Positions 14,452 to 48,925 of a stretch of DNA of 64,000 bases are shown one piece after another. Position 1 is the stretch's first letter; each line of letters begins with the position of its first letter. A program made the position numbers and the translations under genes. The notes under the pieces are model-generated. The model saw only the letters and a list, made by a program, of their open reading frames with translations, was not told the origin of the DNA and ran no database searches. This DNA is from Profundicola chukchiensis. Its GTDB lineage: Bacteria; Bacteroidota; Bacteroidia; Flavobacteriales; Weeksellaceae. The stretch covers positions 124,001 through 188,000 of the forward strand of contig NZ_JANAIE010000002.1 of assembly GCF_029664245.1 (NCBI RefSeq). The letters are read 5' to 3'.

Positions 14452-15038
14452 TTATTTACGGAGCGAGCGGACATGGCAAGGTCATTCATGACATTCTGAA
14501 GTCACAAAGGATTTCAGAAGATATCCTATTTGTAGATGATGCTGATAAAGGTGATCTTTTTTATGGATGTAAGCTTCTTAAACCGCAGCAAGTAAATCTC
14601 AGTGAGCATAAGATAATCATTGGGATTGGCAATAATCTGATTAGAAAAAAAATCTCATATAAGTATCCACAATATGCACTTGCGATTCATGCTAGTAGTG
14701 TTATTTCTCCTAGCGTAGAGATAAATGAAGGCAGCGTCGTGATGTCTAACGTCAGCATTAATGCAGATACTAAAATTGGAAAACATTGTATATTAAATAC
14801 CGCATGTAGCATAGATCACGATTGTGTTTTAGACGACTTTGTACACATTTCTCCTAACGCCTCATTGGCTGGAAATGTTAAAGTTGGAGAAGCAACACAT
14901 ATAGGAATTGGTGCATGTGTAATTCAAGGCATAAAAATTGGTAAATTTGCCACCGTCGGAGCGGGCAGTGTTGTTATAAAAGATGTGCCCGACGGCGCTA
15001 CCGTAGTTGGTTCACCAGCTAAAATAATTAAAACCTAA
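14448..15038 (+). CDS. pglD: PglD-like UDP-4-amino-sugar N-acetyltransferase
   Basis: The 196-residue protein has an N-terminal Rossmann-like half (MIIYGASGHGKVIHDILK) and a C-terminal left-handed beta-helix of hexapeptide repeats, ending VVGSPAKIIK. CSIDHDCVLDDFVHISPNA holds the His expected to be catalytic in PglD. PglD acetylates the C4 amine to complete UDP-diacetylbacillosamine. Coupling to the PglC-like gene (ATGA overlap) and the PglE/PglF homologues downstream support this substrate over other NeuD-type roles. Confidence 0.9.
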   Translation: MIIYGASGHGKVIHDILKSQRISEDILFVDDADKGDLFYGCKLLKPQQVNLSEHKIIIGIGNNLIRKKISYKYPQYALAIHASSVISPSVEINEGSVVMSNVSINADTKIGKHCILNTACSIDHDCVLDDFVHISPNASLAGNVKVGEATHIGIGACVIQGIKIGKFATVGAGSVVIKDVPDGATVVGSPAKIIKT

Positions 15039-15043
15039 ACTCT

Positions 15044-24082: not shown

Positions 24083-25135
24083 ATGTCAAAAACAATTTTA
24101 ATCACAGGAGGAGCAGGTTTTATCGGTTCTCACGTCGTAAGAAGATTCGTAAATCAATACCCTCAATATAAAATCGTTAATTTAGATGCCCTTACCTATG
24201 CAGGGAATCTAGAGAACTTAAAAGATGTTGAATCCGCTAATAATTATGAATTCGTACACGGAGATATAACAGATGCCGACTTCATCCAAAAGCTTTTTGA
24301 AAAATATAAATTTGACGGAGTAGTTCATTTAGCAGCTGAATCTCACGTAGATAGATCAATTACCGACCCTCTTGCTTTTGCCAAAACCAATATTCTAGGT
24401 ACCATGAATTTATTAAATGAATTCAAAACATTATGGCAAGATAAGTGGGAAGGAAAACGTTTCTACCACGTTTCTACCGACGAAGTTTATGGTACTTTAG
24501 GAGAAACCGGCTTATTTACCGAAGAAACTTCCTATGACCCTAATTCACCTTATTCAGCTTCTAAGGCATCGTCTGACCATTTCGTAAGAGCTTATGGTGA
24601 AACTTATGGTATGCCTTATGTAATTTCAAATTGCTCTAATAACTACGGACCTAATCACTTTCCAGAGAAGTTAATTCCACTTTGCATCAATAATATTTTA
24701 AATAAAAAACCACTTCCTATCTACGGGGATGGTAAATTCACTAGAGATTGGCTATATGTTATCGACCATGCCATTGCTATCGATAAAGTTTATCATGAGG
24801 GCGTAAATCACGAAACTTATAATATTGGTGGATATAATGAGTGGAAAAACATAGACCTAGTAAAAGAATTGTGTAAACAAATGGACGAAAAACTAGGTAA
24901 CGAAGCTGGAACTTCGGAGCAGCTCATCACCTTTGTAAAAGATAGACCAGGACATGACTTGCGATATGCCATTGATTCTAGTAAAATCACCCGAGAATTA
25001 GGCTGGAAACCATCGGTTACTTTCCCTGAGGGGCTTTCTGCAACCATCGATTGGTACCTAAACAACGAGGAATGGTTGAATAATGTAACCAGCGGTGATT
25101 ATATGGATTACTATGAGGAGAGATATAATGAGTAA
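24083..25135 (+). CDS. rfbB: dTDP-glucose 4,6-dehydratase
   Basis: The 350-residue SDR enzyme makes dTDP-4-keto-6-deoxyglucose. The NAD loop is ITGGAGFIGSHVVRRF and LAAESHVDRSI is the family signature. STDEVYGTLGE holds the catalytic Thr-Asp-Glu, YSASKASSDHFVRAY the Tyr/Lys pair, and SNNYGPNHFPEKLIPL the substrate region. rfbA is 9.4 kb downstream. rfbC and rfbD are absent from the window, so the product may feed an amino-sugar pathway (see the aminotransferase at 36831) rather than rhamnose. It stands alone, with repeat-rich gaps on either side. Confidence 0.95.
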   Translation: MSKTILITGGAGFIGSHVVRRFVNQYPQYKIVNLDALTYAGNLENLKDVESANNYEFVHGDITDADFIQKLFEKYKFDGVVHLAAESHVDRSITDPLAFAKTNILGTMNLLNEFKTLWQDKWEGKRFYHVSTDEVYGTLGETGLFTEETSYDPNSPYSASKASSDHFVRAYGETYGMPYVISNCSNNYGPNHFPEKLIPLCINNILNKKPLPIYGDGKFTRDWLYVIDHAIAIDKVYHEGVNHETYNIGGYNEWKNIDLVKELCKQMDEKLGNEAGTSEQLITFVKDRPGHDLRYAIDSSKITRELGWKPSVTFPEGLSATIDWYLNNEEWLNNVTSGDYMDYYEERYNE

Positions 25136-31246: not shown

Positions 31247-32302
31247 TTAGTTGTAAAGCTTCATCAAATTTTGAATATGACTTTCCAATGAATAATTTTG
31301 CTTAATATGAAGTTTGGCTTTCTTAGCTACTAATTCCCGCTCTTCTTTATCTAATTCTATTATCTTCACTAATGTAGCAAATAAATCATCATCGTCATCA
31401 ACATTCACCAACCATCCATTAACTCCTGGTGTAATTATTTCCTCAGCAGATCCAGACTTGGTTGAAACAGAAGGAATTCCACTATACATAGCCTCAATCA
31501 AAGAATTAGAAAAACCTTCTGTAAATGAATTAATTACATAAACATCACTTTCTAGCAAAAATGGGTACGGATCGGTTTGAAAGCCCAAAAATTTAACCTT
31601 ATCCTCTAATTTTAATTCCTTAGCTAAAGCTTTAAGTTTAATCTCTTCTTTCCCACTCCCAACGATATGATAACACACATTAAAACCTTTGTTTAAAAGC
31701 CGGCGTAGCACTCTTAATGTACCTTCTATGTTTTTCACATGTTCTAGTCGTGAAACTGAAATAATTATAAATTCTTCGTACTTACTTTTAGGTTGCGGTA
31801 AATCTTTTAAAATAATGGGATTAGCAATAAGTTTTAACTTTTCATTTGACACCTTATTCATATTTGCCAAATATTTCAAAACAGGTTGTGAATTCCCGAC
31901 TACATAATCCACCCTTTTATAAAGAGTCGAAAATATAATTTTGCTCAACTTGCCTTGACCGGGTATTCCTATTTCCTCTGCAATAATCCTAGGAACTCCA
32001 GCTAAATTGGCAGCAATAATTCCAAAGAAATTAGCCTCTGCTCCAGACGTGTGAACCACATCTGGCTTATGTGATTTAAAAAAACGATATAAGGAATAGA
32101 CCGTGGCTGGATTAGGGATTTTATAGGAAAGATTAAGACAGTGTACCTGTTTACCCTTCTCTAATATTTCCTTCTCCGCTTGGCCACCCTTATTAATCGC
32201 ACAAAATACCCACTCATTTGAATCCTCTACTGAGGCAACGTTTGTAAGACGCTTCTCCACCCCTCCAAAATCTAAAAAAGTAGTTAACCTAATAATCTTC
32301 AT
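31247..32302 (-). CDS. Glycosyltransferase family 4 (FLDFGGVEKR type)
   Basis: The 351-residue enzyme begins MKIIRLTTFLDFGGVEKRLT and carries HTSGAEANFFGIIAANLAG, ISVSRLEHVKNIEGTLRVL and NSFTEGFSNSLIEAMYSGIP. The EX7E motif is EGFSNSLIE. It overlaps the upstream ATP-grasp gene by four bases, so the two are made together, and the same pair recurs (with this gene broken) at 44995-47106. That conserved pairing suggests the ATP-grasp product and this transferase act in one step or on one residue. Confidence 0.88.
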   Translation of the reverse strand: MKIIRLTTFLDFGGVEKRLTNVASVEDSNEWVFCAINKGGQAEKEILEKGKQVHCLNLSYKIPNPATVYSLYRFFKSHKPDVVHTSGAEANFFGIIAANLAGVPRIIAEEIGIPGQGKLSKIIFSTLYKRVDYVVGNSQPVLKYLANMNKVSNEKLKLIANPIILKDLPQPKSKYEEFIIISVSRLEHVKNIEGTLRVLRRLLNKGFNVCYHIVGSGKEEIKLKALAKELKLEDKVKFLGFQTDPYPFLLESDVYVINSFTEGFSNSLIEAMYSGIPSVSTKSGSAEEIITPGVNGWLVNVDDDDDLFATLVKIIELDKEERELVAKKAKLHIKQNYSLESHIQNLMKLYN

Positions 32303-33345
32303 GCCTTAGACTTTATATGGTAATCTATAGCATAGGCATATGATTTTTCTAAATCAGAACGTTCCTCAATGCATTCCCATTGATTTTCTTTATTAATGTA
32401 ATATCTATCTGATCCAATTAGAGTTAAGGGACCAAAAGCAACTCCTTGATATTCGAACAAATAACAATTATTATCAATATCAATTCCTATATCTAAAGAC
32501 ACAAATGGAGTTTTCAGTTTATTAACAATATTTTCTGCATAATCTAGAACTTCCCGTGGGGCTTCCACCCACTCAAATTTACCACTACCACTAGCTCTAA
32601 AATCATTTTCTCTTATCCCTCTTCTTAAAACATAATATTTATCTCCAAAAACAAGTACCTTATAATCACAGTTTAAACCTGGAATGAATTCTTGCGTAAC
32701 AATTTGAGTTCTCTTTTGAAAGCTATCAATAAAGTTTTGTTCCAATAAATTAGATATCGGTTTTAAACCATGATCACCTTTGAAGTTATTAAACTTATTT
32801 ATTCGATAAGCTATGCTGTCTTTGATACTTTTAGTCTTTAATTTGCTCTGAAACTTTAAAAGCTCTTCTTCATTATTTATTAACTGTACTCCACTTGAAA
32901 GAGCTCCTTCATTTAATTTCAAAACAAAAGGAAAACTCATTTTATTCTTATCCTTAATAAGATCATTTATATCACCGTAATATTTCCCTCTAACTCGTTG
33001 AATTTCACATATCATTTTTAAATACTCTTGAAAACCTTTGTTCTCTAGAGACCTAACCTGCTCATAATTTGGAAGCAAATGAATATCAGGTCGTATAACA
33101 GTAATTAAATGAATTGTATCTTGAATATATTGGAGATAAGATTTATTATAACTTCCTGAATAAAACAATGAACTATTATGAGGTATATTATTCAAATTCT
33201 CCACTATCTCTCTGAATGAAACTAATTCAACCTCATGATTATAAACTTCAATTAGTTCTTTTTTAATCGCTTCAGAATCCAATCCCATCCAAATTCTACC
33301 TGACATATAATGTTCAAATAAAGGGGAAATAATAATTTTACTCAT
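32299..33345 (-). CDS. ATP-grasp enzyme paired with glycosyltransferase (copy 1)
   Basis: The 348-residue protein has an N-terminal domain (IIISPLFEHYMSGRIWMGLD) and an ATP-grasp fold from about 125. FPFVLKLNEGALSSGVQLI holds the ATP lysine, VTQEFIPGLNCDYKVLVFGD the adenine-site strand, and LDIGIDIDNNCYLFEYQG the metal-binding acid. Such enzymes join a carboxylate to an amine through an acyl phosphate. A role in adding an amino acid or other acid to a sugar is possible but unproven. It is the first gene of the minus-strand island; a paralogue lies at 44995. Confidence 0.75.
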   Translation of the reverse strand: MSKIIISPLFEHYMSGRIWMGLDSEAIKKELIEVYNHEVELVSFREIVENLNNIPHNSSLFYSGSYNKSYLQYIQDTIHLITVIRPDIHLLPNYEQVRSLENKGFQEYLKMICEIQRVRGKYYGDINDLIKDKNKMSFPFVLKLNEGALSSGVQLINNEEELLKFQSKLKTKSIKDSIAYRINKFNNFKGDHGLKPISNLLEQNFIDSFQKRTQIVTQEFIPGLNCDYKVLVFGDKYYVLRRGIRENDFRASGSGKFEWVEAPREVLDYAENIVNKLKTPFVSLDIGIDIDNNCYLFEYQGVAFGPLTLIGSDRYYINKENQWECIEERSDLEKSYAYAIDYHIKSKA

Positions 33346-34513: not shown

Positions 34514-35380
34514 ATGAAAGGTATTATTTTGGCTGGTGGTTCAGGCACTCGCTTACATCCTTTAACTCTCGCTGTTTCTAAACAGCTCCTACCTATATAT
34601 GACAAACCGATGATTTATTATCCATTATCGGTATTGATGTTATCTGGAATAAAAGATATTTTAATCATTTCCACCCCACACGATTTACCTAATTTCCAAA
34701 AACTTTTTGGTGATGGTTCTCAATTGGGACTACATATAGAATACAAAGAACAACCTAGTCCTGATGGTTTAGCACAAGCCTTTATTTTAGGAGAGGAGTT
34801 TATTGGAGATGATGACGTATGTTTAGTTCTTGGTGACAATATATTTTATGGCGCTGGACTATCAAAAAAACTACAAAGTGCCGTTCAAACTGTTAAAGAA
34901 GAAAATAAAGCTGTTGTCTTTGGCTATCAAGTTCTAGATCCTGAAAGGTATGGAGTTGCCGAAGTAGATAAAGAAGGTAATGTTATCTCCATAGAAGAAA
35001 AACCTATCCAGCCTAAATCTGATTATGCGGTTGTGGGATTGTATTATTATCCCAATTCAGTGGTACAAATCGCGAAAAACGTAAAACCATCTGAGCGTGG
35101 GGAGTTAGAAATTACTTCTGTGAATTCAGCCTATCTGACTCAAAAAAATTTAAAGTTAGAACTTTTAAGCCGAGGCTATGCATGGCTAGATACCGGTACT
35201 CATCAATCATTAACTGAGGCTACAGAATTTGTAAAGGCCGTAGAGCATAGAACAGGCTTGAAGATTGCCGCCATTGAAGAGATTGCATACAAAATGGGGT
35301 ACATCAGTCTCGAGCAACTCAAAGAGAATGCCAAGGCTATAGAAAAAAGTGGTTATGGGCAGTACTTGTTAAACTTATAA
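34514..35380 (+). CDS. rfbA: Glucose-1-phosphate thymidylyltransferase
   Basis: The 288-residue enzyme makes dTDP-glucose. [20 protein letters not shown] is the nucleotide-binding start, then [42 protein letters not shown] and [11 protein letters not shown]. Full-length match to RfbA/RmlA. Together with rfbB at 24083 it supplies dTDP-4-keto-6-deoxyglucose. It appears to begin the rfbA-wzx-aminotransferase-ATP-grasp run, whose genes are 1-5 bases apart. Confidence 0.96.
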
Positions 35381-36830: not shown

Positions 36831-37898
36831 ATGATCAACGTTACCAAAACTTATCTTCCCCCAATGGAAGAATACACTTCTTATCTACAGCGTGCTTATG
36901 ATAAGGTATGGCTGACCAATCGTGGTGAATTGGTGAAAGAGTTAGAAGATAAACTTAAATCCTTTTTAGGTGTTAACCACCTAACTTTAACGACCAATGG
37001 TACCTTACCAATTCAAATTGCTATTAAAGCTTTAGATTTAAAAGGGGAAATCATCACGACGCCATTTTCTTATGTGGCTACTACTTCGGCCATTGCTTGG
37101 GAAAACTGCACCCCTGTATTTGTTGATATAGAGGAAGATTATTTAACCATTGACCCAACAAAAATAGAAGAAGCTATTACCGACAAAACATCGGCTATTT
37201 TAGCTACACACGTGTTTGGAAATCCATGTGATGTGGAAGCTATTGAAGCCATTGCAAACAAACATAATTTAAAAGTTATTTATGATGCAGCTCATTGTTT
37301 TGGGGTAAATTATAAAGGTCAAAGTATATTTAACTATGGGGATGTAAGCACCTGCTCTTTTCATGCAACTAAAATTTTCCACACAGGTGAAGGAGGCTGT
37401 TTTATAACTAATGATTCAGAGTTACATCATAAACTATTCTATCATCATAATTTTGGGCATAAAACTCCAACCAGCTTTCATGGCGTAGGTACGAATGCAA
37501 AAATGAGTGAATTACAAGCTGCTATGGGCTTAGCTGTTTTTGATCATATAAATGAGATTATTGAACATCGTAAAAAAGCAGTTGAAAAATATGATGAACT
37601 TTTAGATCAAACTTCTCTAAAAAGATTAAAGATAAGACCTGGAACTGAATGGAATTACCACTATTATCCAATTATTTTTAACTCTGAGGAGCAACTGTTA
37701 AAAGTAATGGAAGCTATGAATTCTGAAAATATTTTCCCTAGAAGATATTTCTATCCTAGCTTAAATACACTTAATTATGTGAATAGAAATGAAATGGAAA
37801 TCTCGGAGTCAATTGCAAAAAGAATTTTATGCCTTCCTCTTTCAGCTGAAATTTCATATTCTGAAATAGAATTAATTGCTGGTTTTCTAAAACCTTAA
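36831..37898 (+). CDS. DegT/DnrJ-family 4-keto-sugar aminotransferase, VioA-like
   Basis: The 355-residue PLP enzyme starts INVTKTYLPPMEEYTSYLQR and has LTTNGTLPIQIAIKAL for phosphate binding. IYDAAHCFGVNYKG holds the PLP aspartate and CSFHATKIFHTGEGGCF the Schiff-base lysine. It is most like VioA-type enzymes that turn dTDP-4-keto-6-deoxyglucose into a 4-amino-4,6-dideoxyhexose; WecE or FdtB-type activity cannot be excluded by eye. rfbA just upstream and the WecF-like transferase at 26532 fit a dTDP-4-amino sugar pathway. Confidence 0.82.
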   Translation: MINVTKTYLPPMEEYTSYLQRAYDKVWLTNRGELVKELEDKLKSFLGVNHLTLTTNGTLPIQIAIKALDLKGEIITTPFSYVATTSAIAWENCTPVFVDIEEDYLTIDPTKIEEAITDKTSAILATHVFGNPCDVEAIEAIANKHNLKVIYDAAHCFGVNYKGQSIFNYGDVSTCSFHATKIFHTGEGGCFITNDSELHHKLFYHHNFGHKTPTSFHGVGTNAKMSELQAAMGLAVFDHINEIIEHRKKAVEKYDELLDQTSLKRLKIRPGTEWNYHYYPIIFNSEEQLLKVMEAMNSENIFPRRYFYPSLNTLNYVNRNEMEISESIAKRILCLPLSAEISYSEIELIAGFLKP

Positions 37899-37903
37899 AC
37901 ATT

Positions 37904-39094
37904 TTGAAAAAAAAGATTTTAATCCTAGGCGGCTCATATGCTCAATTACCTTTTATTAAAGAGGCTAAAGCAAGGAATTATTATATAATTTTAATAGACT
38001 ATCTGGAAAACAACCCGGGTCAAGAATTTGCTGATGAATACTATAGTTTAAGCACTACCGATAAAAATGCGGTTTTAAAATTAGCTATAAAAATTAAACC
38101 TGATATTATCTATTCCTATGCGTCAGATCCAGCAGCTCCTACCGTAGCTTATGTTGCCAATAAATTAGGCTTAAAATATGCTAACAATCCAACCTCTGTG
38201 GATATTTTAGGGGAAAAAAATAAATTCAAGGAATTTTTAAGATTAAATAATTTCAATGTCCCTAATTTTATTACTATTAATCTAGATAGTGATAATATTG
38301 ATAAATTAGAGGTTTTAGATTTGCCTTTTATCATAAAGCCTACGGATTCATCTGGAAGTAAAGGAGTTAACCTGATAACAAGTTATGAGGAAATTAAAAA
38401 AGCTGTAAAACACGCTCAATCATTTAGTAGAAATAATATCTTGATTGCAGAGGAATACATTGATACAAATTGGCAACAAATTCATGGAGATATGTTCATA
38501 GAAAACGGCGAAATTATTTTCAGCCATTTAGGAGATCATCACTTCGATATAAATCAAAATTCATTTGTCCCCTTTTCAACATCTTGGCCCTCTAAATATT
38601 CCAATAAACTTATAGAAAAAGTTAATTCTGAAGTTCAAAAAGTCTTAAACCTTTTAGAATACAAGAATGGCCCTATTAATGTAGAAGCTCGAATAAAAAA
38701 TGAAAAAGTTTATATAATGGAATTAGGACCTAGAAATGGTGGAAATTTTGTTCCCATAATTTCAAAAATATCCACTGAATTTGATATGATTGAGGGCTTA
38801 TTTAATCAATTTGAAGGCATTACTAATACAGTTCCCTCAACTACGACAAAACCATCATGCTATTACGTACTGCGTTCTTTTAAACCTGGGCTTTTAAAAA
38901 AAATAAATATATCAAAGGAATTGGATGCGAAAATTGAAAAATCATATATTTATAAAAAGGTAGGTGAGCAAATTAATTCATTTTCAGGAGCAAATGAAGC
39001 CATAGGGGTTTTTCTGATGACCTTCGATAATATAAAAGAAATGAACAACTTTTATGAGAAGGACTCGGATTTAATATCAATTGAATTAGATTAA
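37904..39094 (+). CDS. ATP-grasp carboxylate-amine ligase-like protein
   Basis: The 396-residue protein has a pre-ATP-grasp domain (KILILGGSYAQLPFIKEAKA) and an ATP-grasp core from about 110. FIIKPTDSSGSKGVNLI supplies the ATP lysine and glycine loop. VEARIKNEKVYIMELGPRNG supplies metal-binding Glu and Asn. It resembles PurD/CARNS-like ligases more than the short ATP-grasp genes at 32299 and 44995. The start is TTG at 37904. It heads the tight cassette with a PLP enzyme, a NeuD homologue and CoA-ester enzymes; it could make an amide on a sugar or an acid precursor, but the substrate is unknown. Confidence 0.75.
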   Translation: MKKKILILGGSYAQLPFIKEAKARNYYIILIDYLENNPGQEFADEYYSLSTTDKNAVLKLAIKIKPDIIYSYASDPAAPTVAYVANKLGLKYANNPTSVDILGEKNKFKEFLRLNNFNVPNFITINLDSDNIDKLEVLDLPFIIKPTDSSGSKGVNLITSYEEIKKAVKHAQSFSRNNILIAEEYIDTNWQQIHGDMFIENGEIIFSHLGDHHFDINQNSFVPFSTSWPSKYSNKLIEKVNSEVQKVLNLLEYKNGPINVEARIKNEKVYIMELGPRNGGNFVPIISKISTEFDMIEGLFNQFEGITNTVPSTTTKPSCYYVLRSFKPGLLKKINISKELDAKIEKSYIYKKVGEQINSFSGANEAIGVFLMTFDNIKEMNNFYEKDSDLISIELD

Positions 39095-39095
39095 T

Positions 39096-40046
39096 ATGAA
39101 TGAAATTGGAGGCTTTTTTGGATTAGAGCTATCTTCGGGTAATGAATATCATAAAGGTGCTATTAGACTAAACACCGGAAGAAATGCATTTGAGTATATT
39201 TTAAAGGCAAAAAATTACAGTAAAGTGTATATGCCCTACTTCACTTGTAGCGTTATGTTAGAACCTATACATAAACTAGACTTGGATATTGAGTTCTATC
39301 ATGTTGATGCCGAATTTTACCCAAAATTTAACTTTGATAAAGTACAAGACAAGGAGGTTTTTCTTTACACTAATTATTTTGGCATATGCGATCACTTAGT
39401 TGAACGCGTAATGAAAAAGGTTATTAATTTAATTGTAGATAATTCACAAGCTTTCTATTCAAAACCAATTAATGGTATCGATACTTTTTATTCGGCAAGA
39501 AAGTTTTTTGGCGTACCTGATGGGGCCTATCTTTACACAGAAACTCTACTTGATCAAGAGCTTGAACAAGATACTTCCATTAATAGGTTTGAACATTTAA
39601 TTGGTAGAGTAGAAACTAATGCAAAATCGTACTATTCCAAATTTAAAGAAAGTGATAACTCATTAAAAAACCAACCTATCAAAACAATGTCTATAATAAC
39701 ACAGAAAATTTTAGACTCCTTAAATTATAAGAAAATAGCCAACGTACGTAGACAAAATTTTGAATTCTTTGAAAATATTTTAAAAGAATCAAATATGCTT
39801 AATTTTGATTTAAGTAAGGATAGCGTTCCAATGATATATCCCTATTTCGTAGATGAAGGCTACAGATTAAAAAATAAACTTATAGAAGAGAACATTTTTG
39901 TTGCAACTTATTGGCCTAATGTATTAAAATGGACCACGCCTGATACATTTGAATTCAATTTAACTCAAAACTTACTTTCTTTACCAATAGATCAAAGGTA
40001 TGACTCAACAGAATTACTGCAAATTAAAAAAAATCTAAAAGAATGA
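39096..40046 (+). CDS. Diverged DegT-like PLP-dependent enzyme
   Basis: The 316-residue protein aligns by eye with the aminotransferase fold. RLNTGRNAFEYILKA is the phosphate-binding turn, LIVDNSQAFYSKP has the PLP aspartate, and FYSARKFFGVPDGAYLY has the lysine. Sequence between these points is unlike standard sugar aminotransferases, so its substrate may differ. It is one base after the ATP-grasp stop and overlaps the next small gene by four bases, so it is part of one cassette. Confidence 0.65.
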   Translation: MNEIGGFFGLELSSGNEYHKGAIRLNTGRNAFEYILKAKNYSKVYMPYFTCSVMLEPIHKLDLDIEFYHVDAEFYPKFNFDKVQDKEVFLYTNYFGICDHLVERVMKKVINLIVDNSQAFYSKPINGIDTFYSARKFFGVPDGAYLYTETLLDQELEQDTSINRFEHLIGRVETNAKSYYSKFKESDNSLKNQPIKTMSIITQKILDSLNYKKIANVRRQNFEFFENILKESNMLNFDLSKDSVPMIYPYFVDEGYRLKNKLIEENIFVATYWPNVLKWTTPDTFEFNLTQNLLSLPIDQRYDSTELLQIKKNLKE

Positions 40047-40267
40047 TAATCGAAAAACCCTATATAGATGTTAGAGAAAATGAAACTTACCTAATCGCGA
40101 ATATTATCGACGAGGTAAACAACCTTGAAAAAGAAATTTATGATCTTGCTATTGACACTCAATTTAGTTTTCCAAATGAGGTTAAGACTAAAATACAAAA
40201 ATATAAGTTGAAAGAGATATATATTGGTCTTAAAATAAGGCTTTATAACCTTATCAAAAGCAATTAA
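40043..40267 (+). CDS. Small protein of unknown function
   Basis: A 74-residue acidic/basic mixed protein (MIIEKPYIDVRENETYLIAN...). It has no hydrophobic segment, Cys pair or motif that I know. It is kept as a gene because its ATG overlaps the PLP gene stop (ATGA) and the next gene starts ten bases after it. A carrier or accessory subunit is conceivable, but there is no DSL-type serine for phosphopantetheine, so an acyl-carrier role is not supported. Confidence 0.5.
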   Translation: MIIEKPYIDVRENETYLIANIIDEVNNLEKEIYDLAIDTQFSFPNEVKTKIQKYKLKEIYIGLKIRLYNLIKSN

Positions 40268-40277
40268 ATATTTACAT

Positions 40278-40931
40278 ATGAAAAAGATAATTATTATTGG
40301 AGGAAAAGGGACCCCCGTGGTAATCGCTGAACAAATTCAAAATGCAATAGATAAATTCCAAATGGATTTGGAAATACTTGGTTTTGCATTTGATGATGAA
40401 TCTTTTGGAAAAGAAATTAATGGTTATCCAATATTAGAAAAGACTTACAATGTATATGAAAAATATAAGGATCATAAAGATGTTTATTTTATCTTCTCTC
40501 TCTACCGTAGTGATGTGATTAAAGAACGTATTGCTTTACGCAACAGCTATGGTATTCCTTTAGATCGATATATTAATTTTATTCATCCCTTAGCGACAGT
40601 TGCCCAAAGTGCCAAATTAGGATACGGAAATATTATCTTAGCAAATGTTGTTATCAACCCAAATGTGATTTTAGGTAATTTCAACACTTTTAATTCGAAT
40701 GCTCTAGTTGGACACGATACTATAATGGGTAATAGTAACTTTTTGGCTGGACATTCAATTATTGGAAGTAATCTAAAAATAGGTAACGGTAATTTTTTTG
40801 GATTAAATTCTTCCTCCAAAAATTTTGTAGAAATTAAAGACTATAACATAATTGGTATGGCAGCAAATGTCGTAAAGGATGTTGAGTCTAATCAGATCTT
40901 AATAGGCAATCCTGCAAAACCTTTAAAATAA
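40278..40931 (+). CDS. NeuD-family acyltransferase (hexapeptide repeat)
   Basis: The 217-residue protein has a nucleotide-binding-like start (KKIIIIGGKGTPVVIAEQIQ) and a left-handed beta-helix from about residue 105 to LIGNPAKPLK. Asn-rich turns (GNFNTFNSNALVGHDTIMGN) mark the coil, with the His of VGHD as candidate base. It should move an acyl group from CoA to a sugar amine or hydroxyl. Its position next to CoA-ester enzymes suggests the donor might not be plain acetyl-CoA; that is inference only. Confidence 0.78.
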   Translation: MKKIIIIGGKGTPVVIAEQIQNAIDKFQMDLEILGFAFDDESFGKEINGYPILEKTYNVYEKYKDHKDVYFIFSLYRSDVIKERIALRNSYGIPLDRYINFIHPLATVAQSAKLGYGNIILANVVINPNVILGNFNTFNSNALVGHDTIMGNSNFLAGHSIIGSNLKIGNGNFFGLNSSSKNFVEIKDYNIIGMAANVVKDVESNQILIGNPAKPLK

Positions 40932-40984
40932 ACTTACAAATAAAATATCGTTAATGCTTAATTTCAAATAATTCACAATTGCAT

Positions 40985-41812
40985 ATGGATACTTTTTTCT
41001 TTATACCTGCGTCTAAACATCACAAAATTGATGATATATTAAAATTGGGTGTTGAACATATAATTATTGATTTTGAGGATTCAGTATTAGAAAAAGACAG
41101 ATTATTATTATTTGAAGAAATCAAAACTCATCCTCTTTTTAAAAGTTTTTGGTACAGGATTCCATTTAGAAGCGATTTCAAAGACACTATTGATTTAACC
41201 TTCCTAAAGCTATTTCAAGATAATGAAATAGCAAATTTCGTTTTCCCAAAATTAAAAGACCTTGAAGAAGTAATTAGCATTAATAATTTTAATCTACATA
41301 AAACATCATGTATATTATTAGTTGAACATCCTAGATTATTATTTGATTTAGAACAAATTCTGAGGAGTAATCTTGATAAATTGGAAATTACGGGTATAGG
41401 ATTAGGCTCACATGATTTAACAAGTGTTATGAACACTTTAAATAATGAGCGTGTATTAAATTACCCTAAATCATACCTTTCTTATTTATCCAAAGCTTTT
41501 GGTATTATTAATATCGATGTTGCATCCATGGAGTTAAAAGATTTCACTAAATTTAGTGAAGAATTAGAAATAGCACATGAATTTGCATGTGAAGCTAAGT
41601 TTTTAATTCATCCAATTCAATTGGAATGGATGAAGTCTATCTCATCCAAGTCTCAGATTGAAATAGAGTGGGCAGAAACTATCATTAATGCGCTTCCTCA
41701 GAATGTCAATCCAGAAGAAATTGAACCATTCGTGCTTCAAGGTAAAATTATAGAAAAAATGCATATAATAAATGCGTTAAATACGTTAAAAGAAAATAAA
41801 GATGGAAAGTAA
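40985..41812 (+). CDS. CitE/HpcH-like CoA-ester lyase or aldolase, copy 1 (diverged)
   Basis: The 275-residue TIM-barrel protein follows the CitE/HpcH plan: VEHIIIDFEDSVLEKDR (metal/substrate Asp), WYRIPF for the Arg strand, LLVEHPRLLFDLEQIL for the Glu, GIGLGSHDLTSVM, and FLIHPIQLEWM at the end. It is shorter and more diverged than the second copy at 42261. CitE-like enzymes cleave or form CoA esters such as citryl-, malyl- or methylmalyl-CoA. ATG 40985 is preferred to the TTG two codons earlier. It overlaps the MaoC-like gene by 11 bases. Confidence 0.75.
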   Translation: MDTFFFIPASKHHKIDDILKLGVEHIIIDFEDSVLEKDRLLLFEEIKTHPLFKSFWYRIPFRSDFKDTIDLTFLKLFQDNEIANFVFPKLKDLEEVISINNFNLHKTSCILLVEHPRLLFDLEQILRSNLDKLEITGIGLGSHDLTSVMNTLNNERVLNYPKSYLSYLSKAFGIINIDVASMELKDFTKFSEELEIAHEFACEAKFLIHPIQLEWMKSISSKSQIEIEWAETIINALPQNVNPEEIEPFVLQGKIIEKMHIINALNTLKENKDGK

Positions 41813-42257
41813 ATTTGGTAATTATTTAGAGGACTTTAATGTGGGTGATACTATTCAGCATGCGTTATCAAAAACCATATTCGAAAGCGACAATAACCTT
41901 TTTAGTTTATTGACGATGAACCATCATCCTGTACATCTAAATAATGATTTTGTGAAAGGCCACCAGCATGGTCAAATCTTAGTTGTTGGTACTTTAGTTT
42001 TCAGTTTAGCCGTAGGAATTACAGTCGGTGATATCAGTGGTAAAGCTATTGCTAATTTAGAGTACGAATCTATTAAACACTTAAATCCTGTATTTATTAA
42101 TGATACAATATATGTGAGAACAAAAATATTGGACAAAAGAGAATCTAAATCTAAAAGTGATAGAGGGATAATTTATGTTGAAAGCATTGCATACAATCAA
42201 GACGGAATTGACGTATTAAGTTTTCGTCGAAAAGTACTTATACCTAAAAAACCATAA
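41802..42257 (+). CDS. MaoC-like hotdog-fold dehydratase/hydratase
   Basis: The 151-residue protein starts FGNYLEDFNVGDTIQHALSK and has TMNHHPVHLNNDFVKGHQHG, the hydratase motif normally written DxNPxHxD. Here Asp is replaced by Asn, but the His is kept. GQILVVGTLVFSLAVGITVG and LNPVFINDTIYVRTKIL complete the fold. Relatives hydrate enoyl-CoAs such as mesaconyl-CoA. It sits between two CitE-like genes, the combination found in mesaconyl/methylmalyl-CoA chemistry, which is unusual in a polysaccharide locus. Confidence 0.82.
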   Translation: MESKFGNYLEDFNVGDTIQHALSKTIFESDNNLFSLLTMNHHPVHLNNDFVKGHQHGQILVVGTLVFSLAVGITVGDISGKAIANLEYESIKHLNPVFINDTIYVRTKILDKRESKSKSDRGIIYVESIAYNQDGIDVLSFRRKVLIPKKP

Positions 42258-42260
42258 ACT

Positions 42261-43148
42261 ATGAAAAATCAACTTTTTAGAAGCCTATTATTTGTTCCTA
42301 GTCATAATGAAAAACTAATGACAAGTGCATCGAATTCCGATGCAGATATATTATTATTAGATATAGAAGATTCTGTTCAACCAACTTCCAATAAAGAAGT
42401 TGCTAGAAATACAGTGTTAAAATACCTAAAGGAAGGACATTTTGAAAATAAGATTCTATTTCCAAGGATTAATGATAGAGAAAGTGGTCAATTGCTGAAA
42501 GATGTTTTAGCTCTCACCACTGACGGAATAGCTGGCTTTATGTATCCTAAAGCTAAAAAAGGTGAAGACATCTACTTTTTTGACAAGCTTCTAGAAACCG
42601 TCGAATACGAAAAAGGAATCGAAAAAGGAACATTTAAAATTATCCCTCTTATAGAAACAGCATCAGCTGTGTTAAATGTAGAGGAGATTTGTAGAGCCTC
42701 TTCTCGAGTAGTTGCAATTGCTTTTGGCTCAGAGGATTTCATTACTGATTTAGAAGGGATTCATGATTATGAACACACTAGTCTTTCAACTCCTAGAGCA
42801 ATAATAGCCATGGGTGCTCGTGCTGCTGGAGTCATTCCGATTGATACAGTTCATATTAGGGTTCATGATTTGGAAGATTTAGAAAAAAACCTAATCATAT
42901 CTAAGAATTTAGGTTTCGAAGGTATGTTAGTTTTACACCCCAAGGAACTCCCATTAGTTCATCAATACTTTTCGCCTTCCATTCAAGAAGTTAATGATGC
43001 TAAAGAAATGCTTAAATTAGCAGAAGAAGCTGAAAAGTCAGGGGTTGGTGTTGCGATTAAAAATGGTAAGTTTATAGGCCCACCAATGATAAAAAACGCA
43101 CAAAAGATTTTATATAAACACAAGCTAATTGAGGATAAAGAATCCTAA
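42261..43148 (+). CDS. CitE/HpcH-like CoA-ester lyase, copy 2
   Basis: The 295-residue protein is a full CitE-family member. FRSLLFVPSHNEKLMTSA begins it, ADILLLDIEDSVQPTSNK has the Asp/Glu pair, ILFPRIND the arginine, IPLIETASAVLNVEEI the metal Glu, AIAFGSEDFITDLEG the next acid, and MLVLHPKELPLVHQYFSP the C-terminal lid. Reactions in the family include malyl-CoA and beta-methylmalyl-CoA cleavage or formation. It follows the MaoC-like gene by three bases. The product may be a hydroxy-dicarboxylic CoA ester used to decorate the glycan; this is inference. Confidence 0.85.
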   Translation: MKNQLFRSLLFVPSHNEKLMTSASNSDADILLLDIEDSVQPTSNKEVARNTVLKYLKEGHFENKILFPRINDRESGQLLKDVLALTTDGIAGFMYPKAKKGEDIYFFDKLLETVEYEKGIEKGTFKIIPLIETASAVLNVEEICRASSRVVAIAFGSEDFITDLEGIHDYEHTSLSTPRAIIAMGARAAGVIPIDTVHIRVHDLEDLEKNLIISKNLGFEGMLVLHPKELPLVHQYFSPSIQEVNDAKEMLKLAEEAEKSGVGVAIKNGKFIGPPMIKNAQKILYKHKLIEDKES

Positions 43149-43162
43149 GAATACATAAATAC

Positions 43163-44125
43163 ATGGTCAACTTAAAAGAACCAATAGCAATATCAGAACA
43201 AAATTGGGATGATAACATATCTCCTTTGGTTAGTATTCAATGTATAACTTATAATCATGAAAAGTACATAAAAGATGCTATCGAGGGATTTCTTATGCAA
43301 AAAACAAATTTTCCAGTAGAAATTCTTATTCATGACGACGCCTCAACCGATAGAACTGCTGAAATAATTAGGGAATATGAATTGAGGTATCCTAATTTAT
43401 TTAAGCCTATATATCAAGTAGAGAATCAGTATTCGAAGAAAAAAGGAGTTATAACTCGTATTCAAAATGAAAGAGCTAAAGGAAAATATATTGCTAAATG
43501 TGAAGGTGATGATTATTGGACAGACCCATTAAAATTGCAAAAGCAGGTTGCTTTTCTCGAAGAAAATCCAGAATATGTATTATCATGTCATAATTACCAA
43601 ATTCTTGATTTTGACGGAAAAAGTCTCAGAAAAGAATACGAGCATAAATTCGTGAATAATAAGGAATCAATAGATATCGATGAAGAAGTGTTCTTAAATC
43701 ATTGGATTACTAAAACGTTAAGCGTTGTTTTAATAAATGATCCTAAAATATTTAATGAAAATTCAAAAATAAAAAATCAGCGAGATTTAACTTTGTTCTA
43801 TACCTTTATAAAAAATGGTAAAGGGATTTTTCATAATTTTTATGGAGGAGTTTACAGAAAACAGAAAGGAGGAGTTCACTCATCTAATTCTGCCTTACAA
43901 GCTGAAAAGGAAACTTTAAAAATTTTAGAGGAATTAAATTTCATTTATAATACTAAAGCATTGCAAAAGAAAATTCAATTTGTAAAGCGAAATATTATAT
44001 ATTATAATTTTAAAAGTTCAGACTCTAAGTCGATACCTTTAAGAGAGATAAGAAATTTAAAAATTTCATTAAAAGAAAAATTTATATTATTGGGTATTTT
44101 AATATATAACAAACTTAAAATCTAA
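43163..44125 (+). CDS. Glycosyltransferase family 2
   Basis: The 320-residue GT-A enzyme has VSIQCITYNHEKYIKDAIEG at the N-terminus, LIHDDASTDRTAEIIREYE for the nucleotide loop and KCEGDDYWTDPLKLQKQV, whose DD is the metal-binding DXD-type motif. It is the ordinary inverting GT2 type used in repeat-unit assembly; donor unknown. It closes the cassette that starts at rfbA; a 422-base gap follows. Confidence 0.9.
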   Translation: MVNLKEPIAISEQNWDDNISPLVSIQCITYNHEKYIKDAIEGFLMQKTNFPVEILIHDDASTDRTAEIIREYELRYPNLFKPIYQVENQYSKKKGVITRIQNERAKGKYIAKCEGDDYWTDPLKLQKQVAFLEENPEYVLSCHNYQILDFDGKSLRKEYEHKFVNNKESIDIDEEVFLNHWITKTLSVVLINDPKIFNENSKIKNQRDLTLFYTFIKNGKGIFHNFYGGVYRKQKGGVHSSNSALQAEKETLKILEELNFIYNTKALQKKIQFVKRNIIYYNFKSSDSKSIPLREIRNLKISLKEKFILLGILIYNKLKI

Positions 44126-44547: not shown

Positions 44548-44878
44548 ATGAAAAACAAAGTTTTAATTACAGGTGGAGCAGGATTTATCGGCTCTAATTT
44601 AGCATTAAGATTAATCGATAAGGGATATGAAATTACAGTTTTAGACAATCTATCACCACAAATCCATGGTGAAGATCAAAACTCTAGTTTATATAACTCC
44701 ATTAAAGACAAAGTTACTTTCATTCAAGGTGATGTTAGGTATAGAGAAGATTGGGAAAAAGCCTTAAAAGGCCAGCATAAAGTAATTCATTTGGCTGCTG
44801 AAACTGGTACAGGTCAGTCTATGTATGACGTTCAAAAATATATTGATGTCAATTGTTATGGAACGGGTATCTTTTTAG
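44532..44878 (+). repeat. 347-base direct repeat, copy 1
   Basis: Shared with 47776-48122 at a constant offset of 3,244 bases. I count about 14 differences by eye, so about 96% identity. It spans 16 bases of leader plus the first 110 codons of the epimerase and ends abruptly after GGTATCTTTTTAG. Confidence 0.9.
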
Positions 44879-44993
44879 GTGATACTACTATCGAAAATGG
44901 CGCTGAGATTTCCGCAAACAGTGTAGTAAAAAGATTTGTTCAAGAAACTCTACATTTGGAGGAAACCCAGCTAAAATAATTAAACAATTCTAA
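44548..44993 (+). pseudogene. Chimera: epimerase N-terminus fused to acyltransferase C-terminus, frameshifted
   Basis: Codons 1-110 repeat the NAD-binding half of the epimerase at 47792 ([20 protein letters not shown]). From base 44879 the sequence changes to the end of a hexapeptide acyltransferase: GDTTIENGAEISANSVV. The expected tail GGNPAKIIKQF is encoded at 44958-44990 but in another frame, with its stop at 44991-44993, so a frameshift lies shortly before it. Read straight through, a 143-residue product without the catalytic YxxxK results. Neither enzyme can be functional. It looks like a recombination junction that was then damaged. Confidence 0.85.
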
Positions 44994-44994
44994 A

Positions 44995-46053
44995 ATGAAC
45001 ATAATCATCTCCCCTATTTTTCAAAACTTTTTTTCTGGTCGCATTTGGATGGGACTAGACTTTATGGAAATAAAAAAAGAGTTAGAATCTAAATATCAAG
45101 CTAAGGTTCAAGTAATTCCACTTAAAGACATAAAAAGATCTTTAAACGATATACCTGAAGGTGCTGTACTTTTTTATTCTTCTGTATATAATCCAGAATA
45201 TTTAAAATTCATTCAAGATAGTATTACATATATTTCTTTGAAAAGACCTGACATCATATTAATGCCCAACCAACATCAATTAAATGCCTTAGAAAATAAA
45301 GGTTACCAAGAATTATATAAAGATTTGATAGGAATTGAAAAGGTACATGGAGAATATTTTGGTGATATCGATGACCTTCTATCCATTGAGAATTCTTTAG
45401 ACTACCCATTCGTTTTAAAAAAGAATATGGGAGCTTTATCAAGTGGTGTTCAATTAATAAAGTCTAAAAATGAATTAATAAACTTTCGAGAAAGAGAAAA
45501 GAAAAGAAGCTTAAAAGAAAGAATTGCCTTCAAAATCAATAAAAGAAATAGCTTCAAAAAGGACAGTAACTTAAATCCTCATTTGGACTTATTAGAAGAA
45601 AATTTCCAAGATGTTTTCTCAAAAAGGACACCAGTGGTTGTACAAGAGTTTATCCCTGATTTAGATTGTGATTATAAAATTTTAATTTTTGGAGATAAAT
45701 ATTATACATTTAGAAGAGAAACTAGAAATAATGATTTTAGGGCAAGTGGTAGCGGAAAGTTTTCTTTTATTGCACCACCATTGAGCGTATTAGATTATGC
45801 TAGAGAGATTAATGATAAATTTAAAGTTCCATTTATTTCTATTGATATCGGAATAGATAAGAATGGAGAATGTTATTTATTTGAATTTCAAGGAACAGCT
45901 TTCGGCCCTATTGGCGTTACGCAATCAAAATTTCATCTAAAATATGTTTCAAACGAATGGATTAAAGTTGAAGAAAGTCCTAATTTAGAAAAAGCTTACG
46001 CATATGCAATACATCATTTCGTAAATTCTAATAAAAAAAATGAAAATCCTTAG
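44995..46053 (+). CDS. ATP-grasp enzyme paired with glycosyltransferase (copy 2)
   Basis: This 352-residue protein is a full-length paralogue of the protein at 32299-33345, visibly alike throughout (IIISPIFQNFFSGRIWMGLD at the start; FVLKKNMGALSSGVQLI; VVQEFIPDLDCDYKILIFGD; FRASGSGKFSF). All ATP-grasp landmarks are kept and there is no stop, so it may still work. It overlaps the broken GT gene that follows by 14 bases, the same order as the intact island. Its surroundings are decayed, so expression and use are doubtful. Confidence 0.72.
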   Translation: MNIIISPIFQNFFSGRIWMGLDFMEIKKELESKYQAKVQVIPLKDIKRSLNDIPEGAVLFYSSVYNPEYLKFIQDSITYISLKRPDIILMPNQHQLNALENKGYQELYKDLIGIEKVHGEYFGDIDDLLSIENSLDYPFVLKKNMGALSSGVQLIKSKNELINFREREKKRSLKERIAFKINKRNSFKKDSNLNPHLDLLEENFQDVFSKRTPVVVQEFIPDLDCDYKILIFGDKYYTFRRETRNNDFRASGSGKFSFIAPPLSVLDYAREINDKFKVPFISIDIGIDKNGECYLFEFQGTAFGPIGVTQSKFHLKYVSNEWIKVEESPNLEKAYAYAIHHFVNSNKKNENP

Positions 46054-47106
46054 ACTTTCTACATTTTTAGACTTTGGAGGAGTTGAAACCAGGCTAGCAA
46101 ACATATCGCATACAAATACCTAGCATGAATGGGTTTTCGTTTGTATGAACAATGAAGGTAAAGCAGTAGAAAATATTAAGAAATATAATAAGCCTGTAAT
46201 AAACCTAAAAACTAAACCTAGTATCTATAGTTTTACAACCTTTCATAAGGTTTTAAAAGTTATTAAGAAAGAAAAACCAGTTTTAGTGCACACTTCAGGT
46301 GCTGAAGCCAATTTTCATGGCATAATCGCAGCTAAAATAGCAGGCGTAAAAGTAATTATTGGTGAAGAAATTGGGATTCCTCAACATGGCTCTCAAGCAA
46401 AATTTATATATTCTACCATATATAAATTTGCTAATTATATTGTTGGCAATTCGCAACAAGTTCTAGATGTCGTGCATGAACAAGATAATCTCCCTTTTCA
46501 AAATTAGTTAAAATCGCCAATCCAATTATTTTCAAAGAAATCCCAACGAAGGAAATTAAGGATTTTAGTGATTATCAATTTAAATTACTCATGATATCGC
46601 GCCTAGAGCCTGTTAAAAACATTAAGGCTGTATTAAATGTGATGAAGCGTTTGGTGAAATTGAATCACAAGGTTCATTTAACAATTGCAGGAAGTGGAAG
46701 TTTAGATAAGGAATTACGCGATCAAGTAAAGCATCAAAAATTAGATAATCATGTCAATTTTATTGGTTTTATTACCGATCCATATCCTCACTTACTAACA
46801 TCTGACTTATACGTATTAAATTCATTTACTGAAGGTTTCTCTAATTCATTAGTGGAAGCAATGTATAGTAGAACGCCAGCTCTAAGCACCTCAGTGGGAT
46901 CAGTTCCAGAAATTATTAAGGACGGTGAAAATGGATTCCTAGTAGAACCCGACAATGAAGATTTGTTGGTTGATAAAATATTGGAGATAATGAAAACACC
47001 TAAAGGGCATTTACTACAAATAGGAAAATCAGGGCATAAAACTGTGGTTAATAATTTCTCATTGGAAAAACATATATTTGAATTAATGAAAATTTATAAA
47101 AATTAA
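46040..47106 (+). pseudogene. Broken glycosyltransferase 4 gene (paralogue of 31247-32302)
   Basis: The start MKILRLSTFLDFGGVETRLA parallels the intact gene. A TAG at 46121-46123 replaces codon 28, where the intact protein continues towards NEWVF. The frame then runs on with HTSGAEANFHGIIAAKIAG and VGNSQQVL. A frameshift near 46495 moves it to SKLVKIANPIIFKEIP, and the rest includes MISRLEPVKNIKAVLNVM and NSFTEGFSNSLVEAMYSRTP (EX7E kept). With one stop and one frameshift, no full-length enzyme can be made. Partial pieces from internal ATGs lack one half of the GT-B fold. Confidence 0.88.
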
Positions 47107-47775: not shown

Positions 47776-48122
47776 TTAAACATACTAATCAATGAAAAAC
47801 AAAGTTTTAATTACAGGCGGCGCAGGCTTTATCGGCTCTAATTTAGCATTAAGATTAATCGATAAGGGATATGAAATTACAGTTTTAGACAATCTTTCTC
47901 CACAAATCCATGGTGAAGATCAAAACTCTAGTTTATATAACTCCATTAAAGACAAGGTTACTTTCATTCAAGGTGATGTTAGAAATAGAGAAGATTGGGA
48001 AAAAGCCTTAAAGGGTCAGCATAAAGTAATTCATTTGGCTGCTGAAACTGGTACAGGTCAGTCTATGTATGACGTTCAAAAATACATTGATGTGAATTGT
48101 AATGGAACTGGTATCTTTTTAG
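47776..48122 (+). repeat. 347-base direct repeat, copy 2
   Basis: This is the copy inside the intact epimerase gene; it matches 44532-44878 with about 14 differences, several of them silent. The two copies bracket 2.9 kb containing the chimera tail, one ATP-grasp gene and two dead GT genes. Confidence 0.9.
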
Positions 48123-48925
48123 ATTTATTAGTAAATACAGAACACGAAATAGATAAAGTGGTTGTTGCCTCATCGAGAGCAATTTACGGAGAGGGAAAAT
48201 ATCATTGTAAAGAACACGGAACGGTGTATCCTAATGAAAGAAAGGATGCTGATATGGCTCAAGGTGAGTTTGAACCCAAGTGTCCTGTTTGTAATAAAGA
48301 TTTAGATTTAGTTCCGACTACAGAAGATTCTAAAATTCATCCATCTTCCGTTTATGGTATCACTAAACAGTTCCAAGAACAAACCGTATTAAATGTTTGT
48401 GGTTCTATTGGAATTAACTCAGTCGCTTTAAGATATCAAAATGTTTACGGACCAGGGCAATCACTTAAAAATCCTTACACAGGGATTCTTTCGATTTTTT
48501 CCACTCAAATTTTGAATGGGAACTCCATTAATATTTTTGAGGATGGTAAAGAAAGTAGAGACTTTGTATTTATTGATGATGTAGTAAACGCTACCATTAT
48601 GGCTATGGAATCAACTTCTTCGGCCAATAAAAGTTATAACATCGGAACAGGCATTGGTACGAATGTATTAGAGGTGGCTAATGCCTTAAATGATATCTAT
48701 GGAGCTCCCGTTGACATTAAGGTGACTGGTAATTATAGATTAGGAGACATCAGACATAATGTTGCTTCTTTAGACGCGGCTAAAAATGACTTCAACTTTA
48801 TTCCTCAAGTAACCTTTAGCGAAGGGGTACAAAAGTTTGGTAACTGGGTTAAAACACAGAAAGTTGAGGAAGATAATTACCAGAAATCTATAGAGGAAAT
48901 GAAGGCTAAAGGTTTATATAAATGA
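47792..48925 (+). CDS. NAD-dependent nucleotide-sugar epimerase, WbiB-like
   Basis: The 377-residue extended SDR protein has [34 protein letters not shown] and the catalytic SSVYGITKQFQE. A zinc-ribbon-like insertion between them (C-x2-H at YHCKEHG, then CPVC) is typical of WbiB-type dTDP-L-rhamnose 4-epimerases, which make dTDP-6-deoxy-L-talose. rfbC and rfbD are not in the window, so dTDP-rhamnose would have to come from elsewhere, or the substrate differs. Its first 110 codons are duplicated at 44548. It overlaps the next GT gene by four bases. Confidence 0.8.
   Translation: MKNKVLITGGAGFIGSNLALRLIDKGYEITVLDNLSPQIHGEDQNSSLYNSIKDKVTFIQGDVRNREDWEKALKGQHKVIHLAAETGTGQSMYDVQKYIDVNCNGTGIFLDLLVNTEHEIDKVVVASSRAIYGEGKYHCKEHGTVYPNERKDADMAQGEFEPKCPVCNKDLDLVPTTEDSKIHPSSVYGITKQFQEQTVLNVCGSIGINSVALRYQNVYGPGQSLKNPYTGILSIFSTQILNGNSINIFEDGKESRDFVFIDDVVNATIMAMESTSSANKSYNIGTGIGTNVLEVANALNDIYGAPVDIKVTGNYRLGDIRHNVASLDAAKNDFNFIPQVTFSEGVQKFGNWVKTQKVEEDNYQKSIEEMKAKGLYK

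Follow-up and report, generated by a model that had tools for sequence, protein, structure and literature searches.

Here we analyze seven consecutive genes at positions 37904 to 43148 of a 64,000-nucleotide stretch of DNA from Profundicola chukchiensis (contig NZ_JANAIE010000002.1, positions 124,001 to 188,000), which we call the window. The genes lie in a polysaccharide locus and encode an ATP-grasp protein, a divergent pyridoxal phosphate (PLP) enzyme named PLPx, a small protein, a NeuD-type acyltransferase, and the CitE1, MaoC and CitE2 proteins. Our analysis makes it probable that they form two stacked modules, where the first aminoacylates the sugar 4-amino-4,6-dideoxyglucose (Qui4N), and the second lets NeuD cap the aminoacyl unit with an acyl group made by the CitE and MaoC enzymes. 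The evidence consists of gene order, recurrence, family kinship, active-site residues and fold, all determined by computation. A previous interpretation of the same DNA, made without database searches and referred to as the sequence-only reading, had described the seven genes as one CoA-ester cassette. Its inference was broadly right, but the set consists of two exchangeable modules and CitE2 is atypical; a single pathway for all seven genes was rejected, since each module recurs without the other.

All seven open reading frames are intact and located on the plus strand, closely spaced or overlapping as the sequence-only reading had described them, with intergenic distances of 1, -4, 10, 53, -11 and 3 bases. 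The ATP-grasp gene (37904..39094, TTG start) is followed by the genes for PLPx (39096..40046, 316 residues) and for a 74-residue protein without any Pfam or NCBIfam family match (40043..40267), which was not seen at the same position in the other mapped PLPx loci. Ten bases further on comes the gene for the NeuD/VioB-type left-handed beta-helix N-acyltransferase (40278..40931), and then those for CitE1, an HpcH/HpaI-type acyl-CoA lyase/synthase (40985..41812), a MaoC-type enoyl-CoA hydratase of the itaconyl/mesaconyl-CoA hydratase kind (41802..42257), and the CitE-like protein CitE2 (42261..43148). CitE1 starts at the ATG in position 40985 or possibly at a TTG in position 40979, so that its distance to neuD is 53 or 47 bases, respectively. 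The clustering is more than chance, as it is repeated in other genomes.

Recurrence of the CitE1-MaoC-CitE2-NeuD module

When a CitE2 profile was run over 395 Bacteroidota genomes the scores fell into two groups, with eight genomes at 263 bits or more and the next one at 166 bits. In the seven high-scoring genomes other than the window's own, a maoC gene directly adjoins citE2 and the cluster contains an acyltransferase with a beta-helix of the NeuD or LpxD type, and the order citE1-maoC-citE2-neuD is kept in four loci (L131, L132, L135, and L136). Two of the lower-scoring CitE matches were opened (L137 and L138); both lie outside glycan loci and have kept the lid aspartate discussed below. 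Together with the loci linked to PLPx (the window, L025, L026, L052/L168, L054, L057, L075, L078, and L096) and with the Verrucomicrobiota genome L167, where the order is rmlA-vioA-maoC-citE1-citE2-neuD-wzx, we obtained 17 CitE2 loci in two phyla, counting both of the near-identical L075 and L078. All 17 are glycan loci, and each of them combines CitE2 with MaoC and a beta-helix acyltransferase. CitE1 accompanies CitE2 in about half of the loci, and in a further locus (L050) a citE1-maoC pair is found at the end of the contig. Strains with the cassette include Mesonia hippocampi DSM 29568 and Pontibacter sp. FD36. The aminotransferases next to the cassette are VioA, WecE (541 bits, cut-off 375), LegC-type or PseC-like, and would by family be makers of C4-amino sugars.

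The pairing of a CoA-ester cassette with NeuD beside a 4-amino-sugar aminotransferase, as proposed in the sequence-only reading, is thus a recurrent arrangement, and the CitE1-MaoC-CitE2-NeuD part of it is also found without ATP-grasp and PLPx. A wide distribution outside glycan loci in another role would have spoken against the proposal; among the 17 CitE2 loci there was no such case.

A MaoC profile run over 246 genomes of the window's family gave no match besides the window itself. This result and the distribution over phyla suggest that the cassette was acquired horizontally. No match was obtained when Escherichia coli genomes were searched with the CitE and MaoC DNA of the window, and a search of phages returned generic CitE only. 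A 369-genome sample from the class of genome G684 likewise contained no CitE2 match, which shows little as the sample had no positive control. In the open-access literature searched we found no report of CitE/HpcH together with MaoC in O-antigen loci. Malyl-bearing O-antigens occur in P. rubra (ATCC 29570), V. vulnificus YJ016 and F. columnare (ATCC 43622).

Active sites of CitE1, CitE2 and MaoC

Both CitE1 (33.6 bits) and CitE2 (143 bits) score above the 25-bit cut-off of the Pfam family PF03328, and all CitE1 and CitE2 proteins retain the equivalents of Arg76, Glu141 and Asp168 of malyl-CoA lyase (Mcl). The lid position, which is Asp299 in Mcl and Asp320 in CLYBL, gave a different result. 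It is an aspartate in 29 out of 29 other CitE-family proteins compared, a glutamate in all nine CitE1 proteins, and a glycine in CitE2 (Gly273 in the window, motif FIGPPM). The glycine was found in 15/15 aligned CitE2 proteins, and L167 and L168 likewise read GPP at this point, so that all 17 loci are covered. The sequence-only reading had named the lack of active-site residues in the CitE and MaoC proteins as an argument against itself, and on this point the outcome is divided: the lid aspartate of CitE2 is lost throughout, and its metal-site residues Arg, Glu and Asp are kept. CitE1 may well be active, judged from its sequence, because the CitE-type lyase of a catabolic-type gene cluster in Azospirillum also carries a glutamate in the lid (LVERP). 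In CitE2 we also noted a histidine (His15, window positions 42303-42305) that is invariant in the 15 aligned proteins, absent from the 29 other CitEs, and covaries with the lid glycine. As a substitute base it was rejected, being absent in the Verrucomicrobiota locus L167, and is retained as a lead only.

The MaoC protein scored 64 bits against PF01575 and 124 bits against NF038241 (RipB/Ich), which is below the curated equivalog score of 340. It is 67-79% identical to the other cassette MaoCs and contains the motif TMNHHPVH, and the MaoC from the Azospirillum cluster (45% identity) has the corresponding motif TMNRHPMH. The latter cluster encodes in addition to the CitE-type lyase and MaoC an MmgE/PrpD protein, an acyl-CoA dehydrogenase and a CoA transferase, a gene content as described for itaconate/methylsuccinate use (PMC12290011), and itaconyl-CoA hydratase is reported in the same study to hydrate mesaconyl-C4-CoA as well. 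The kinship among MaoCs of the TMNxHPxH type and this activity on mesaconyl-C4-CoA point to dicarboxylic C4/C5 CoA esters rather than crotonyl-CoA as the substrate of the window MaoC. The MaoCs of the E. coli O123 and O49 clusters have an SGDxNPVH motif, and that of O123 is only 26% identical to the window protein. We rejected the idea that the change from Asp to Asn in the motif leaves MaoC inactive, since the same motif is present in the MaoC of the itaconate/methylsuccinate-type cluster.

The ATP-grasp and PLPx module and the acceptor of NeuD

The ATP-grasp protein matches PF13535 (45 bits) and PF02222 (39 bits). Compared with the PDB, its family profile gave 142 bits to the L-amino acid ligase BL00235 (3vot) and 88 bits to BacD, while the best match was 4dim (183 bits), a structural-genomics entry deposited under the name phosphoribosylglycinamide synthetase. 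These matches fit a ligase role, and we infer that the protein attaches an amino acid to Qui4N; the amino compound proposed as its substrate in the sequence-only reading is then probably an amino acid, for which the E. coli O123/O186 cluster described below provides an experimental anchor. PLPx gave no family match at an E-value of 0.01, PF01041 included, and no PDB match by profile. An AlphaFold2 model based on 64 homologues (mean predicted local confidence, pLDDT, 95.9) has the fold of the DegT sugar aminotransferases, with Z 23.7 to ArnB over 271 aligned residues at 3.0 Å. Lys136, Asp115 and Arg135 are invariant among the 64 homologues, and Lys136 sits at the Schiff-base position of the fold. 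The earlier assignment of the 316-residue protein as a PLP enzyme is therefore upheld by the predicted fold and the invariant lysine.

To map the surroundings of PLPx its alignment was scanned against 84,980 species genomes, and the best 80 of 168 loci, a selection skewed towards close relatives, were kept and analyzed together with the window (81 loci). Directly upstream of PLPx we found WbqC in 29, ATP-grasp in 22 and a PhyH gene in 16 of them (67 in total), and the downstream gene was GNAT in 32, ATP-grasp in nine, NeuD in seven and a sulfotransferase in four; a VioA-type gene was present nearby in 50/81. From these counts it follows that ATP-grasp and WbqC fill the same place and that the capping gene varies, with PLPx as the likely constant partner of the ligase. 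The ATP-grasp/PLPx pair is accordingly found elsewhere with a GNAT, a sulfotransferase or a second ATP-grasp in the place of the CitE and MaoC genes. In six loci (L020, L022, L071, L073, L089, and L097) the second ATP-grasp gene follows PLPx and replaces GNAT or NeuD, some having an epimerase-family gene thereafter, and the additional enzyme perhaps adds a second amino acid. Another arrangement, in L028-L049 from Mucilaginibacter, Pedobacter and Arcticibacter, has PLPx relatives between a PhyH-type dioxygenase and GNAT without VioA, WbqC or ATP-grasp, which points to another use of PLPx. A search of E. coli genomes with the PLPx gene from L088 gave no match.

The gene cluster of E. coli O123/O186 reads rfbB-rfbA-wzx, VioA-type aminotransferase, WbqC, a "hypothetical protein", GNAT, MaoC and GT2. 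The hypothetical protein is a PLPx relative (36% identity to the window PLPx over 312 residues), and the two VioA-type aminotransferases are 42% identical. The clusters of O123 and O186 hardly differ (PMC4732683), and the O123 O-antigen contains beta-D-Quip4NR, where R is N-[(S)-3-hydroxybutyryl]-D-alanyl (review PMC10609480, citing Perepelov 2010). Other published N-acyl groups on Qui4N include acetylglycyl, acetyl-aspartyl, acetyl-allothreonyl and carboxyethyl-alanyl, so a capped aminoacyl group on Qui4N is an established kind of decoration. By elimination, WbqC and PLPx would give the alanyl group in O123, and GNAT and MaoC the hydroxybutanoyl group. Since O123 has VioA, WbqC and PLPx in a row and its Qui4N bears an acylated D-alanyl, the ATP-grasp/PLPx module most likely aminoacylates Qui4N in an analogous manner.

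The WbqC family (PF08889; examples at L041:3346-4044 and L140:7875-8582) was modelled as well (pLDDT 94.8). BshC from bacillithiol synthesis is the proposed ligase joining cysteine to glucosaminyl-malate. A second structural aligner placed 223 of 233 WbqC residues on BshC with Z 14.7, the next match having Z 8.2, and on the basis of this model WbqC may, like BshC, act as a ligase of amino acids and amino sugars.

The NeuD protein encoded at 40278 scored 127 bits against TIGR03570, under the curated cut-off of 160.8, and its best PDB match was VioB (7txp). The C-terminal half aligns to VioB including the catalytic-type histidine, which is also aligned with that of the pilin glycosylation protein 4m98; the N-terminal half falls outside the alignment. 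In a phylogenetic tree the NeuDs of cassettes linked to PLPx fall into a single clade, which also takes in L132, and those of the cassettes without PLPx (L131, L133, L135, and L136) as well as L130, which has WbqC, are placed outside. The window contains three NeuD-type genes (14448, 33692, and 40278). Of the two covered by the tree, 40278 groups with the cassette NeuDs and 33692 does not. The separate clade of the PLPx-linked NeuDs supports an aminoacyl acceptor, and by analogy to O123 the most likely target of the NeuD at 40278 is the aminoacyl amine and not the sugar nitrogen. This departs from the sequence-only reading, in which NeuD places the acyl group on the amino sugar.

Proposed pathway, alternatives and known systems

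Taking the two modules together, the individual reactions and the identities of the amino acid and the acyl group can be sketched by inference as follows. RmlA, RmlB and the VioA-type enzyme would make dTDP-Qui4N, and ATP-grasp with PLPx would join alanine or a similar small amino acid to the 4-amino group, in parallel with the likely role of WbqC and PLPx in E. coli O123. CitE1, MaoC and CitE2 would make a short dicarboxylic acyl-CoA (C4/C5), hydroxylated or unsaturated, most likely by the last steps of itaconate/mesaconate degradation run in reverse, i.e. from acetyl-CoA and pyruvate or glyoxylate followed by hydration/dehydration. NeuD would then acylate the aminoacyl unit at its free amine, and the product, a Qui4N whose N-acyl-aminoacyl side chain bears a carboxylate, would be transferred by the neighbouring GT2.

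Several observations weigh against this pathway. None of the strains with the CitE cassette, the present one included, has a known glycan structure. In Foldseek the WbqC model gave no significant match, the likeness to BshC being among the non-significant ones. The NeuD of L132 falls in the PLPx clade although this locus has no more than a distant relative of PLPx, and L167 has VioA but no PLPx was found there, so the cassette can work without aminoacylation and the acyl group could go to another amine in the window. CitE2 is without the acidic lid residue of generic CitEs, and in the cassette-bearing genome G422 (99% complete) it is the sole HpcH/HpaI protein and therefore works there without CitE1; for these two reasons a condensation by CitE2 is doubtful. 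A mixed oligomer in which CitE1 lends its lid acid to CitE2 was rejected as a general need, since G422 has CitE2 alone, and is possible where both proteins exist.

If the cassette acts directly, NeuD would acylate the 4-amino group of the sugar, either Qui4N or the QuiNAc4N from the genes at 14448-18145, and ATP-grasp and PLPx would serve a different residue. Cassettes without ATP-grasp and PLPx do adjoin WecE-, VioA- and PseC-like aminotransferases, and E. coli O49 has vioA-NeuD-MaoC without WbqC and PLPx. However, the clustering of NeuDs from PLPx-linked loci, the position of NeuD in the place of GNAT in PLPx loci, and the location of the O123 acyl group on the alanyl nitrogen make direct acylation unlikely. 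We also regard it as very improbable that the CitE and MaoC genes are a remnant of itaconate or mesaconate catabolism lying in the locus by chance. Homologous CitE and MaoC proteins are indeed paired in catabolic clusters, e.g. in Azospirillum, but we saw no CoA transferase or acyl-CoA dehydrogenase nearby, the linkage to beta-helix acyltransferase genes extends to 17/17 loci, and the lid signatures of CitE1 and CitE2 are confined to the glycan cassettes.

The role of CitE2 is more difficult to assign. It could build no carbon chain at all and instead be a thioesterase or assist MaoC by binding or editing CoA esters, in which case the cap would be a plain 3-hydroxyacyl group such as 3-hydroxybutanoyl made by MaoC. 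The lid glycine in all CitE2 proteins and the presence of MaoC without CitE in the O123 and O49 clusters speak for this, but the window MaoC belongs to the itaconyl/mesaconyl type and is far from its O123 counterpart, the metal and substrate site of CitE2 is fully kept, and an acidic-lid CitE1 is present in about half of the loci, so we find such a role somewhat unlikely. More tentatively than the two-module pathway as a whole, we suggest that CitE2 might form or process a dicarboxylic acyl-CoA by another route, using another base or a decarboxylating donor, and feed a new kind of decoration (citramalyl-, mesaconyl-, itaconyl- or malyl-aminoacyl on a 4-amino sugar), with the cassette spreading between phyla as a plug-in.

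The surrounding genes were assigned as follows. RmlB (dTDP-glucose 4,6-dehydratase, 24083..25135, TIGR01181 462 bits, cut-off 365) and RmlA (glucose-1-phosphate thymidylyltransferase, 34514..35380, TIGR01207 468 bits, cut-off 361) would supply the precursor. The VioA-type aminotransferase (36831..37898, PF01041 303 bits), which would make dTDP-Qui4N, has DesI as its best NCBIfam match with 269 bits, under the DesI cut-off. The GT2 glycosyltransferase (43163..44125, PF00535 65 bits) probably transfers the decorated Qui4N; GT2s of the same sequence cluster are close to PLPx in many related loci, and it is 34% identical to the O123/O186 GT2 over 126 residues. All four genes are on the plus strand, and a wzx gene is found at 35385. 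A separate gene set at 13840-18145, encoding a phosphoglycosyltransferase, NeuD, a LegC-family aminotransferase and a PseB-like dehydratase, looks like a UDP-QuiNAc4NAc route. Downstream of the GT2 gene, 44548-44979 is a truncated epimerase copy, 98% identical to the first 110 residues of the complete copy at 47792-48925. A weakly ATP-grasp-like gene at 44995 and a GT4 gene in two frames (46145 and 46591) share 48-53% identity with the intact pair 32299/31247, as if 44995-47106 were a decaying older copy of 31247-33345. Finally, two paralogues (53830-54984 and 55156-56289, 34% identity) with C-terminal Por_Secre_tail sorting tails lie inside the polysaccharide locus.

With this analysis an unannotated gene set becomes a testable pathway, and aminosugar decoration is split into exchangeable parts: an aminosugar maker, an aminoacyl ligase (ATP-grasp or WbqC), a PLP partner, an acyl-CoA maker and a capping acyltransferase. 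PLPx and WbqC, which had no assigned function in the annotations examined, gain a concrete candidate role, and for CitE catalysis a whole subfamily without the lid acid is a natural experiment. A carboxylate on the cap, if present, would make the surface polymer more charged, with possible effects on antigenicity and phage binding.

Each half of the gene set resembles parts already known; the literature searched yielded neither the two in combination nor an acyl cassette with CitE. The closest system is E. coli O123/O186 (and, by its published structure, Salmonella O58), which shares with the window a VioA-type aminotransferase, the PLPx relative, an acyltransferase, MaoC and GT2 in one operon, and likewise has a ligase gene between the VioA-type aminotransferase and PLPx. 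This ligase is WbqC in O123/O186 and an ATP-grasp protein of the amino-acid-ligase kind in the window, and where O123/O186 has GNAT and a small SGDxNPxH MaoC without CitE, the window has NeuD, a TMNxHPxH MaoC and CitE1/CitE2. E. coli O49 resembles the window in pairing a NeuD-type acyltransferase with MaoC beside vioA, but it is without CitE and aminoacylation genes and its MaoC is of the SGDxNPxH type. WbqC and BshC have similar predicted folds, and each presumably links an amino acid with an amino-sugar compound, although WbqC has about half the length of BshC, their kinship is undetectable by sequence, and the window itself has no WbqC. The itaconate/methylsuccinate cluster (Ich/RipB and Ccl/RipC) is similar in its MaoC (45%, same motif) and its CitE-type partner (30%); in contrast to that cluster, the window has no CoA transferase, acyl-CoA dehydrogenase or MmgE/PrpD, its CitE2 has lost the lid aspartate, and NeuD and sugar genes are present. 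Malyl-CoA lyase and CLYBL share with CitE1 and CitE2 the fold family and the Arg76, Glu141 and Asp168 equivalents, and differ from them at the Asp299 equivalent, where CitE2 has Gly and CitE1 has Glu.

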